38,617 nucleotides of DNA, from the NCBI GenBank assembly GCA_017936375.1, contig JAGBFR010000040.1:1-38617 (forward strand), written 5' to 3'. The DNA is from Clostridia bacterium. Its GTDB lineage: Bacteria; Bacillota; Clostridia; Christensenellales; Aristaeellaceae. Positions 5,595 through 23,118 of this stretch are shown here, piece by piece. Position 1 is the stretch's first letter; each line of letters starts with the position of its first letter. The notes beneath the pieces were generated by a model. The model saw only the letters and a list, made by a program, of their open reading frames with translations, searched no databases and was not told the origin of the DNA. The position numbers were made by a program, and so were the translations under genes.

Positions 5595-6818
5595 ATGCGC
5601 GCTGGCTATGGCAAATCCGAACTGACCCCGCCGATGGGCGTTGAGCTCGCGGGCTACGGCTACTACCTGGGCCGCTGCGCACAGTCCGTGCGCGATCCGC
5701 TCTATGCCCGGGCGATGATGATCGAAAACGGCGCCCTGCGCACGCTGATCATCTGCTGCGACCTGCTCGGCCTGAGCCGCGCGGTCTGCGGCGCCGTCTT
5801 TGCGCACGCCAGGACGCTGGGCGTCCCCGAGGAGCACATCCTCATCGTGAGCATCCACACACACACGGGCCCGACGATCAAATACCACGAGGGCTGCGGC
5901 TTTGTCAGCGACGATTATGTCGCCACCGTCGCTCCTGCCATCTGCCGGGCTGTCGACGCGGCGGCCGCCGATCTTGACGACGTAAATGCGCTCGAGTATA
6001 TCTGCGCGCCGTTTGAAGGGGATCACATCTATAACCGCACCATCAAGGACGGCCCTGTGGACCGCCATGTGCGCGGCTTCCTGATGACCCGGGCAGAGAA
6101 GGCGGATATCGCCGTCGTGAGCGCCGCCTGCCACGGCGTATTCCGCGGGCGCGTCACTGCCGTCTCCGCAGACTTTGCCGGCGAAATCTGCCGCCGACTC
6201 GACGCGCAGGGCCTGTGCAGCCTGTATCTCAACGGCCTGTGCGGCGACATCGACCCGACGAAGCAGGACGACGCGCTGCTCGATTCCTTTGCAGCGCTCG
6301 TCGTATCCCGCTTTAACGAAAGCAAAAAGCCGCTGCCGACGACCCTCAGCGCCGGCAGTTTCCCCTTTACGCTGAGGCTGACCCCTGTTAAAATAGAAGA
6401 TATCAGGGAGGCTGCCGCGCAGGCCGCCGCCCGTGCCGGCGGAGAAGCTATGCCCGCCGCGCGCGTCGCCCGCACATGGGAGCGGGAGATGCTCGAAAAG
6501 TTCGCCCGGCTGAGCGAGACGGAGGATATCGTCACCAAGTACATCCTGCTCGGCGGCGTGCCCGTCATGGCGCTGCCGTTCGAGGGCTTTACCCAGATCG
6601 GCATGGATATCCGCAGGATCTGCGGGCGCGAGGATGCGCTCGTCCTCGGCTGCGCAGAGGAGCTCCTCGGCTACCTGCCCACCAAGGGCGACATCGCCCG
6701 CGGTACATACGCCGCGCTTGAATCCACATTCCTGTACAAGCGACTGCCCGTCGTCCCCGGAGAGGCGGAGCGCCTCGGCGAAGAGATGGGCTTCGCACTT
6801 GAAAGGGTATTGTCATGA
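5595..6818 (+). CDS. Neutral-ceramidase-like hydrolase lacking the ceramidase serine
   Basis: 407 residues. The start at 5595 is chosen because AAGGAGG (5581-5587) precedes it by 7 bases. The N terminus (GKSELTPPMGVELAGYG) and the HTHTGP motif at residues 88-93 fit the neutral/alkaline non-lysosomal ceramidase N-terminal domain, a zinc-dependent amidase fold; His180 (CHG) is another likely metal ligand. In true ceramidases the conserved GDxSPN loop supplies the catalytic serine; here it is GDIDP, with Asp220 at the serine position, so activity on ceramide is doubtful. There is no signal peptide, so the protein is cytoplasmic, unlike secreted ceramidases. It overlaps the ROK gene by 4 bases. 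An amidase or hydrolase acting on an N-acyl sugar is a plausible inference from the neighbours. Confidence 0.75.
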   Translation: MRAGYGKSELTPPMGVELAGYGYYLGRCAQSVRDPLYARAMMIENGALRTLIICCDLLGLSRAVCGAVFAHARTLGVPEEHILIVSIHTHTGPTIKYHEGCGFVSDDYVATVAPAICRAVDAAAADLDDVNALEYICAPFEGDHIYNRTIKDGPVDRHVRGFLMTRAEKADIAVVSAACHGVFRGRVTAVSADFAGEICRRLDAQGLCSLYLNGLCGDIDPTKQDDALLDSFAALVVSRFNESKKPLPTTLSAGSFPFTLRLTPVKIEDIREAAAQAAARAGGEAMPAARVARTWEREMLEKFARLSETEDIVTKYILLGGVPVMALPFEGFTQIGMDIRRICGREDALVLGCAEELLGYLPTKGDIARGTYAALESTFLYKRLPVVPGEAERLGEEMGFALERVLS

Positions 6819-22204: not shown

Positions 22205-22499
22205 ACATGTCGCCCGCGCCTTCTCGCGGCAGGGTTACGCCGATTTTGCGTCAGCCTAAAACCTTCCCCGATGGCACCGGAGCCCGCGCCACCTGTGGCG
22301 GATAAGAGCGGGCGAAGCGTGGGGAATCATTGCCTTCCCCTATGGGGAAGGGATCGAAGCCTGCCGCCGCCAGTGGCGGAAACAGGCAGGCGGAGCATCG
22401 GGAACTGCAAGGAGCCGTAAGGCGACTATGCAGGCTCCCCGGAGGCATTGCCGAAGGGCAGACGGATGAGGTCTCGCGCCGCAGCGCGATGGAGCTCCG
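22205..22499. repeat. Mosaic of intergenic hairpin modules, no gene
   Basis: No coding signal is found. The stretch is a chain of GC-rich inverted repeats, for example CTTCCCC-tat-GGGGAAG near 22334-22351 and CCGCC-agt-GGCGG near 22370. Two modules recur elsewhere in the window. CCTTCCCC(C)TATGGGGAAGGG plus ATCGAAGCCTGC recurs at 25100-25133. GGGAACTGCAAGGAGC with GACTATGCAGGCTCCCC (22400-22440) recurs inverted at about 24865-24913. Confidence 0.7.
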
Positions 22500-22603
22500 G
22501 TGAGGGGAATCTCCTCTCGCGCCTCGTCGGCGCTCGATCAGCCCGGCTCTGACAGCCCACTGGGCTGTCATTCACATTCCGGGCCAGGTTCGATTCCCCT
22601 CAC
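22500..22603 (+). repeat. Structured tmRNA-arm-like repeat, unit A
   Basis: 104 bases bounded by a perfect 12-bp inverted repeat, GTGAGGGGAATC/GATTCCCCTCAC. Inside are a 5-bp stem GCGCC/GGCGC and a long arm made of GCCCGG/CCGGGC around GACAGCCC-act-GGGCTGTC. Together they would fold into a three-way junction. The 3' end GGTTCGATTCCCCTCAC equals the T-arm and acceptor end of the tmRNA gene 170 bases away, but on the opposite strand. It may be a structured RNA, a SINE/MITE-like element derived from tmRNA, or an attachment-site relic. Confidence 0.7.
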
Positions 22604-22622
22604 AACTACTCTGTACGCTCCG

Positions 22623-22725
22623 GTGAGGGGAATCTCCTCTCGCGCCTCGACGGCGCTCGGTCAGGGCGGCTCTGACAGCCCACTGGGCTGTCATTCACTT
22701 CCGCCCCAGGTTCGATTCCCCTCAC
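22623..22725 (+). repeat. Structured tmRNA-arm-like repeat, unit B
   Basis: A tandem copy of unit A, 103 bases, starting 123 bases later. The lower part of the long arm is GGGCGG/CCGCCC instead of GCCCGG/CCGGGC: two base pairs flipped on both sides so that pairing is kept. Other differences lie only in loops or junctions (tcgtc to tcgac, tcgatca to tcggtca, one base lost in an internal loop). The 12-bp terminal inverted repeat is unchanged. Both units are preceded by CTCCG. Confidence 0.7.
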
Positions 22726-22771: not shown

Positions 22772-23118
22772 TGGTGGAGGTGAGGGGAATCGAACCCCTG
22801 TCCGAAAAAGCGACTGCCGGGCTTTCTCCGAGCGCAGTCTGTGTTTTAACATTCCCTCTCCCCAGCGCCCGCAGACAGGCTCAGGGGTTCAGTAGCTTCA
22901 TCATGTGGCCCTGCGGCAAAGCTTAGGCAGGGTCATGGCCCGCTAATTGACGCCGGGATCCGGGGCAGCGGGATCCCCGGGCCGACGCGCAGCCAGATTA
23001 GGCCGCGAAAGCGTATTCGCTATTGTCAGTTAATATTTAATTCCCGCTTTTAACGTGGCGCGGGGCCACGGCTCGCTTACCCGACCGCCCACGATCCCGT
23101 CGAAACCAGTACACCCCC
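22772..23118 (-). ncRNA. ssrA: Transfer-messenger RNA (tmRNA)
   Basis: 347 nt. The 5' end GGGGGTG pairs with CACCTCC next to the 3' A-CCA (one G-U). The 5' domain has the universal ACTGGTTTCGACGGGAT, and the 3' domain has the T arm GGGGTTCGATTCCCC. The tag reading frame ends in codons for DNSEYAFAA then TAA (complement of 23000-23027), giving the usual proteolysis signal ending in hydrophobic-Ala-Ala. The resume codon is a few codons upstream and cannot be fixed by eye. Pseudoknot-like hairpins lie on both sides of the tag. CCA is encoded. The gene sits just downstream of smpB on the same strand, the classical pair for trans-translation, which rescues ribosomes stalled on broken mRNAs and tags the peptide for degradation. 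Confidence 0.97.

Follow-up and report, generated by a model that had tools for sequence, protein, structure and literature searches.

Candidate mobile elements with a folded core behind tRNA and tmRNA genes of Clostridia

Two ~104-bp repeats beside the tmRNA gene ssrA of a Clostridia bacterium belong to a family of folded sequences, present in many gut Clostridia, that stand behind tRNA and tmRNA genes and carry arms matching the gene they follow. That such blocks have been inserted behind tRNAs is highly likely. The repeats themselves are probably, though by no means securely, units of a non-autonomous and mostly gene-less mobile element that inserts behind the 3' ends of tRNA and tmRNA genes, site-specifically at the T-loop, by way of a folded attC-like site. 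Small non-coding mobile elements and tRNA-targeting islands are kinds already known; as far as could be found, there is no description of a gene-less family with both arms matched to the target tRNA.

The two units beside ssrA

The window, the whole stretch of 38,617 nucleotides that was analysed, holds a distal unit at ~22500-22603 and a proximal unit at ~22623-22725. Both lie beyond a hairpin 3' of ssrA, and the direction in which they are best read is that of ssrA (minus strand). The features are as follows.

22772..23118, minus strand: ssrA (tmRNA), from ARAGORN and Rfam RF00023
22734..22775, minus strand: terminator-like hairpin from the tmRNA to the first unit, overlapping the CCA (inverted repeat I8)
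22709..22725, minus strand: proximal unit, 17-nt arm antisense to the tmRNA T-arm/T-loop (inverted repeat I3)
22635..22708, minus strand: proximal unit core, with stems GGGCGG/CCGCCC, TGACAGCCC/GGGCTGTCA and GCGCC/GGCGC (folding; covariation across relatives)
22622..22634, minus strand: proximal unit, arm that is a direct copy of the tmRNA sequence GATTCCCCTCACC (direct-repeat family D3)
22604..22621, no strand: short spacer separating the units (sequence read)
22587..22603, minus strand: distal unit, 17-nt arm antisense to the tmRNA T-arm (inverted repeat I2)
22512..22586, minus strand: distal unit core, with stems GCCCGG/CCGGGC, TGACAGCCC/GGGCTGTCA and GCGCC/GGCGC (folding)
22499..22511, minus strand: distal unit, arm that is a direct copy, GATTCCCCTCACC (direct-repeat family D3)

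In each unit, then, a three-stemmed core of ~75 nt is flanked on one side by the 17-nt arm complementary to the tmRNA T-arm and on the other by directly copied tmRNA sequence. The antisense arm, GGTTCGATTCCCCTCAC, matches the 3' part of the T-arm exactly over its 17 nt (I2, I3), as the original prediction had it when it described unit ends that repeat the T-arm in inverted orientation. The arm at the opposite end of each unit, GATTCCCCTCACC, which is tmRNA sequence in the orientation of the gene (D3), had escaped that first reading. The 3' end of ssrA at 22772 is presumed to be the target of insertion, and at comparable loci, where filled and empty sites can be set side by side, the terminator-like hairpin is part of the inserted block. 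The spacer at 22604..22621 contains no terminator hairpin, which leaves the distal unit short of the usual ~160 bp. Both units of the window look decayed, their copied end stopping short of CCA and the terminator between them being absent. A spurious ORF that spans them has no Pfam family over cut-off.

Both units fold as had been proposed: the 12-bp outer stem is perfect, and it encloses a long arm in two parts and a short hairpin. Their RNA folding energies are -57.6 and -58.3 kcal/mol (z -6.66 and -7.05), with none of 200 shuffles as good, and folding as DNA gives z -6.1 to -6.7 on either strand. The compensatory change first noticed in the long arm is also there: from GCCCGG/CCGGGC to GGGCGG/CCGCCC, two pairs are altered on both sides, while the remaining differences between the units lie, by eye, in loops or at the junction.

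The same pattern extends to relatives. In an alignment of 39 tRNA-linked copies, 11 of the 16 predicted pairs are changed on both sides in at least one copy, and unpaired bases are conserved alongside the covarying stems. A control in which stem arms were re-dealt among copies (71 copies, from the genus only; 500 re-dealings per stem) covers stems P2 and P3, the alignment of P4 being too poor; the P1 figures from this test were selected for pairing and hence are no evidence. In P2, with 20 distinct arm pairs, 83% of positions are paired, against a re-dealt mean of 67% and a maximum of 76%; in P3, with 12 distinct pairs, the figures are 94% against 77% and 88%. The structure is under selection.

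Copies, carriers and arms

BLAST finds 8 copies in this genome, the two window units included, and a covariance model finds 9, behind four genes: two behind the tmRNA, two behind tRNA-Ser(CGA), one behind one tRNA-Ala(GGC) and four behind another, where protein genes intervene between the tRNA and the last two units. Copies here stand singly or as arrays. The sequence behind 25 other tRNA genes of the genome, read in 20 regions, shows no unit; one tRNA-Ser(GCT) is followed, 67 nt downstream, by a 12-nt copy of its own end.

Within the genus, and counting this genome, carriers number 10 of 29 by BLAST and 16 of 29 by the model at E<=1e-4, the other 13 of the 29 having no match at that threshold. 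Carriers, again including this genome, number at least 38 of 150 sampled genomes (15 of 50 genera) in the family and at least 9 of 291 (8 of 181 genera) in the class; these are lower bounds, obtained with stricter filters and with at most 28 candidates scored per genome in the family and at most 14 in the class. The model used, R1, draws on 39 of the 52 tRNA-linked copies that qualified, after 13 odd or redundant ones had been dropped by hand, and several of its source genomes, later searched with it, match by construction. An exact-pattern scan of GTDB genomes adds at least 118 stretches, in which variation of P3 is understated because the pattern held one fixed P3 sequence; titles among the matches listed include MAGs of Clostridia, Clostridiales, Oscillospiraceae, Ruminococcus, Ruminococcaceae, Christensenella and Faecivivens. 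The presence of the family is patchy across genus, family and class. Homologues exist beyond this locus and keep their stems, as the original prediction of a folded family with many copies and covarying stems had anticipated.

Five of the stretches from the GTDB scan (L101, L102, L131, L186 and L188) show the core motif in a single MAG that carries the label Candidatus Colimorpha enterica, whose genus belongs to Bacteroidales according to NCBI; they may represent either transfer across phyla or an error of binning or labelling.

Among 177 distinct copies collected by motif, 66 have a tRNA or tmRNA on the same strand within 400 nt upstream; the 111 that do not are members of dispersed classes or lie near contig edges. 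The relation between unit and gene was followed in 90 element-like copies within 400 nt after a tRNA or tmRNA on the same strand, which are distinct sequences although sister genomes share ancestry. In 88 of these there is an antisense stretch of 8 nt or more, or a copied end of 12 nt or more; 66 have both and two have neither. The antisense stretch reaches at least 9 nt in 81 copies, with a maximum of 19, and the copied 3' end at least 14 nt in 67, with a maximum of 23. For the antisense arm, the copy's own tRNA beats every other amino-acid type in 73 of the 88 and ranks in the top quarter in all 88. The TGAA motif of the core begins 50-99 nt past the tRNA in 68 of the 88 and at 180 nt or more in the other 20, of which 16 have a nearer unit at the same locus. 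Copied 3' ends that reach the CCA are mostly 20-23 nt long and start between the first base of the T-loop and three bases further on.

These 88 copies are distributed behind 19 tRNA isoacceptors in addition to the tmRNA. An element confined to tmRNA is thereby rejected, and the description of the repeats as tmRNA-derived is not supported, as the arms match whichever gene precedes the unit. The comparison with a SINE fares no better: of the tRNA, only the end from T-arm to CCA is present, the core matches no Rfam family, and no tRNA is called inside the window units, which lack the tRNA-derived 5' region with an internal promoter by which a SINE is recognised. The other half of that comparison, a MITE-like way of life, holds good in that the units are small, non-coding and inserted.

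Of 39 testable copies, 31 have a core closest to one at the same tRNA in a different genome, and in 8 the closer core stands at a different tRNA within the same genome. Such grouping is expected of lineages specialised for a target, and also of vertical descent.

Taken by themselves, the covarying stems and conserved unpaired bases, an antisense arm specific to the local tRNA, and a constant orientation and spacing are what would be expected of a structured RNA acting in cis at tRNA genes. In such a scheme, the anti-T-arm, reached by read-through, would pair with the tRNA or with the downstream copy and so affect maturation or read-through, insertion being secondary. This is, however, an unlikely account of the family. 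A terminator-like hairpin lies between the tRNA and the unit; in this genome, model units are restricted to two tRNA-Ala(GGC), one tRNA-Ser(CGA) and the tmRNA, with none behind the 25 other tRNAs that were read; 13 of 29 congeneric genomes are without a match at threshold; and related cores also occur in dispersed repeats.

The antisense arm could also be seen as a primer-binding site for the tRNA 3' end, the unit being a tRNA-primed retroelement spread as cDNA. One copy, L161, has an antisense arm that spans 18 nt of the tRNA-Gln 3' end, including the CCA, as this would require. By eye, however, most antisense arms stop at the T-stem, and a direct copy together with the native flank is better explained by recombination; a retroelement is accordingly very improbable.

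Occupied and empty sites

Followed in the same sense as the tRNA, a unit opens with a terminator hairpin, continues with an arm antisense to the local T-arm and a covarying core of ~75 nt, and closes with a copy of the tRNA 3' end. At sites with an empty orthologue, the tRNA is intact and the copy of its 3' end is found at the far side of an added block of ~160 bp. The tmRNA gene provides the clearest case. In genome G026 the site is empty, and CCACCA is followed directly by a terminator, whereas in G005 there is a 157-bp block comprising a different terminator, a folded unit and a second copy that ends in CCACCA. When compared with the empty site, the distal flank in G005 scores 75 and the proximal flank 12, the 95% point of shuffled sequences being 20. 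The values at tRNA-Val of the same genome are 78 and 16 (shuffled 19). At tRNA-Trp the contrast is weaker, with 36 against 18 in G013 (shuffled 19) and 30 against 18 in G011 (shuffled 18).

One unit is present at 12 of the 16 loci compared, and its block measures 157-161 bp in nine and 178-179 bp in three, all of the latter at tRNA-Val; the tail word used for tRNA-Ser(GCT) ends 4 nt short of CCA, and its 157 bp would otherwise be 161. These comparisons use one empty genome per tRNA, and two loci for tRNA-Val. A distal flank like the empty site with an unlike proximal flank is seen at L199, L073, L326 and L335, and weakly at L296. At L331 and L018 the proximal flank scores slightly above the distal one; the comparison is uninformative at L329 and L339 and weak at L343, and no tail was found at L344. 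Several loci clearly show the insertion of a block that brings its own terminator.

At five further loci (L336, L337, L069, L328 and L342), the terminators on the two sides are nearly the same, and a local duplication of ~60 bp is possible there. These near-identical terminators, and the occurrence of tandem arrays, are the grounds on which the whole family might be ascribed to local tandem duplication and template switching at palindromes, with no mobile element involved. As a general account this is the least probable of those considered. It is disfavoured because a common covarying core is shared by many tRNA loci and by other families; in addition, the proximal terminators at four loci are unlike the empty site, and T-arm palindromes lacking the core, sought as two exact patterns, are absent from the 29 genus and 150 family genomes. 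The same null result rejects such palindromes as pre-existing targets of the core. In one array, L275, for which the tRNA falls outside the stretch, three consecutive units show two types of terminator and of arm, and simple tandem duplication is thus disfavoured at this locus too.

Recombination, cargo and known systems

Direct copies at the two ends, an inverted copy and a covarying core together resemble the geometry of an integron attC site or of a CTX-type folded attP. An attC is a folded site formed from direct copies of the core site and an inverted copy, and its cassettes stack; CTX-type phages use a single-stranded, folded attP. By analogy, insertion of the tRNA units would be a site-specific recombination within the T-loop, near TTC|RA, with a recombinase supplied in trans. 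The complementary arms would let one strand fold, such that the arm stem forms a double-stranded attachment site beside the core hairpins. The arm stem would then be the recombinase site, with strand exchange in the T-loop; the core would be a recognition structure that units share whichever tRNA they follow, while the choice of tRNA would depend on the arms. Both the recombinase and the strand mechanism are what we infer from this arrangement, and the folded-site step taken alone is a serious possibility rather than a probability. A simple attC-like exchange would not adapt the antisense arm, which nevertheless matches the local tRNA, so that target-specialised lineages must be assumed.

The likeness to integrons is considerable: the units are small and stack, have a direct copy at each end, one of which folds with an inverted copy, and in some cases bear genes. 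The differences are as marked. The integron integrase model TIGR02249 (IntI) has no match over cut-off in any of the 29 genus genomes; the targets are many tRNA genes rather than a single attI; and most units are gene-less. The arms of attC sites follow the consensus RYYYAAC ... GTTRRRY, whereas the arms here read, by eye, as T-arm sequence (for example TTCGAAC / CGAATCCC). IntI is unsupported as the mobiliser. Tyrosine-recombinase matches below threshold are present in 28 of the 29 genomes, carriers or not. The Y1 transposase (PF01797, TnpA_REP) is equally unsupported, being found in 8 of 16 carriers and 8 of 13 non-carriers, although these drafts are incomplete; the carriers without it are G012, G013, G014, G017, G019, G023, G026 and G028.

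Some units bear genes. In one tRNA-Ala array of this genome, two gene-less units are followed by a unit with an AraC-type regulator and an MFS transporter, and then by a unit with a Macro-domain gene. The two gene-bearing units match over 235 columns at 86% at one end, and over 212 columns at 79% and 71 columns at 87% at the other; the 71-column match is the unit's own core, and the cargo differs. Common ends around different cargo would fit cassettes, and likewise two islands with common ends. A more ambitious reading, which we offer only tentatively, is of an integron-like cassette-capture system operating on tRNA genes. Here, T-arms of many tRNAs would serve for docking, a folded three-way-junction hairpin would be the cassette's recombination site, and a recombinase from gut Clostridia would do the inserting, with empty and gene-bearing cassettes being stacked and each tRNA receiving a new 3' end and terminator.

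At tRNA-Trp of G013, units flank a gene for a xanthine/uracil permease (PF00860), and ~450 nt past the last unit stands one for a tyrosine recombinase (PF00589); a half-tRNA copy and an integrase fragment are found as well. An ordinary island is also present at this locus. More generally, tyrosine recombinase (PF00589) genes or fragments adjoin units at tRNA-Trp (L326 4154-5074, L307 and L059) and a fragment adjoins those at tRNA-Val (L051 1096-1323), half-tRNA copies typical of islands occur in L051 and L326, and a further integrase-like ORF lies 2.9 kb from a unit in L158. A viral contig with tail genes (L195; PF10145; PHROG tape measure and Dit) ends, at ~11850, at a two-unit array of the tRNA type. 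An ssrA-like 3' fragment directly precedes that array, with no tmRNA called in the stretch, and the contig can be read as a prophage that used the same tmRNA end.

All these neighbours would be accounted for if the units were attachment-site scars, the ends of integrase-borne islands or prophages that once used the tRNA genes and have since been lost. An island integrase usually serves one site, however, and a single core family here serves 19 isoacceptors and the tmRNA. The block size is narrow, and a strict motif gives 4 distinct integrase hits in 345 partly overlapping loci, an undercount that missed the L051 fragment. Scars of this kind therefore have a low probability as a general explanation, and a mobile element with a folded site is preferred. 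Islands and tycheposons that integrate at tRNAs insert at the 3' end, keep the tRNA whole and leave a copy of that end, and the units do the same; yet at ~160 bp they are too short for an integrase, the gene-bearing pair of this genome carries AraC and MFS genes and a Macro-domain gene, and one family with a covarying core and an inverted antisense arm extends over the 19 isoacceptors and the tmRNA.

The core has other homes. In G004, G012 and G013 it is found inside the loop of a two-hairpin, REP-like repeat (GAAGCG..GGGAGTCTGAGGG-loop-CCCTCAGG..GGGCGGCAGCCC). Core-free REP-like hairpins, mostly with a 7-nt loop, occur in the same genus; they were found by pattern over the fetched loci, and this is the only class in which core-less versions were seen. 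REP-like loci are L040-L056, L060-L068 and L074-L076 (G004, G013, G012), while L049, L051 and L058-L059 are of the tRNA type. A third home is a clostridial dispersed repeat, CCTTCCCC...GCGAAGCG...GGATGAGG, with variants (L078, L088, L113, L126 and others). More than one kind of hairpin loop seems capable of accommodating the core, with the tRNA class the most orderly. The dispersed form is also seen in seven viral stretches (L350-L356), contigs of 6-20 kb of which some are nearly identical to one another; by eye they have no T-arm-like arms, and small ssDNA phages were rejected as the source.

These related cores in REP-like loops of the same genus are a point of likeness to hairpin repeats of the REP/RAYT kind, from which the family is set apart by a Y1 transposase found in only half of the carriers. 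MITEs and small dispersed repeats such as RU elements (PMC2229807, PMC2759123) are likewise short, non-coding, multi-copy, interspersed and presumably mobilised in trans; the ends of the present units, in contrast, vary with the target tRNA, and there is neither a fixed terminal inverted repeat nor a short target duplication. The MRSC-65-2 motif, found in diverse phyla, is also an abundant structured repeat, proposed to be selfish; it is a single long stem, and the accessible part of its description does not associate it with tRNAs (PMC11109978). The 250 mobile or repeat candidates of that paper could contain the tRNA-unit family. A palindrome behind tRNAs in Methanopyrus appears unrelated from the accessible part of its report (PMC5217627).

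Against Rfam 15 at gathering score, the window and loci L003-L008 give tmRNA and tRNA only. At lax thresholds, the units have one match at chance level, and eight relatives have none beyond tRNA, with two weak matches elsewhere in their loci. Phage and plasmid records contain no match to the units, and the open-access literature yielded no description of the family, in keeping with the original suggestion that it is undescribed.

By using universal tRNA ends and leaving each gene whole, these tiny elements seem to have found a way of inserting safely. If the folded-site mechanism is true, it would provide gut Clostridia with an integron-like route of gene capture, could account for gene islets stacked behind tRNAs, and would offer a recombination substrate that can be tested directly. 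The units may also account for some of the spurious ORFs and 'tRNA fragments' near tRNA genes of gut genomes.

Two minor observations concern the surroundings of the units. Short direct repeats near tRNA or ssrA insertions were noticed by eye in L037 (6200-7800), L208 and L199 (TGCACCC / AAAACGAAAG; CCCGTAGGCTTAT; AGTTTCATTGTGG), and are possibly arm-type integrase sites. In the window, a GC-rich dispersed repeat at 22261-22490 adjoins the units; by eye, it resembles the interruption within the final unit of this genome's tRNA-Ala array (L037 ~6013-6103).
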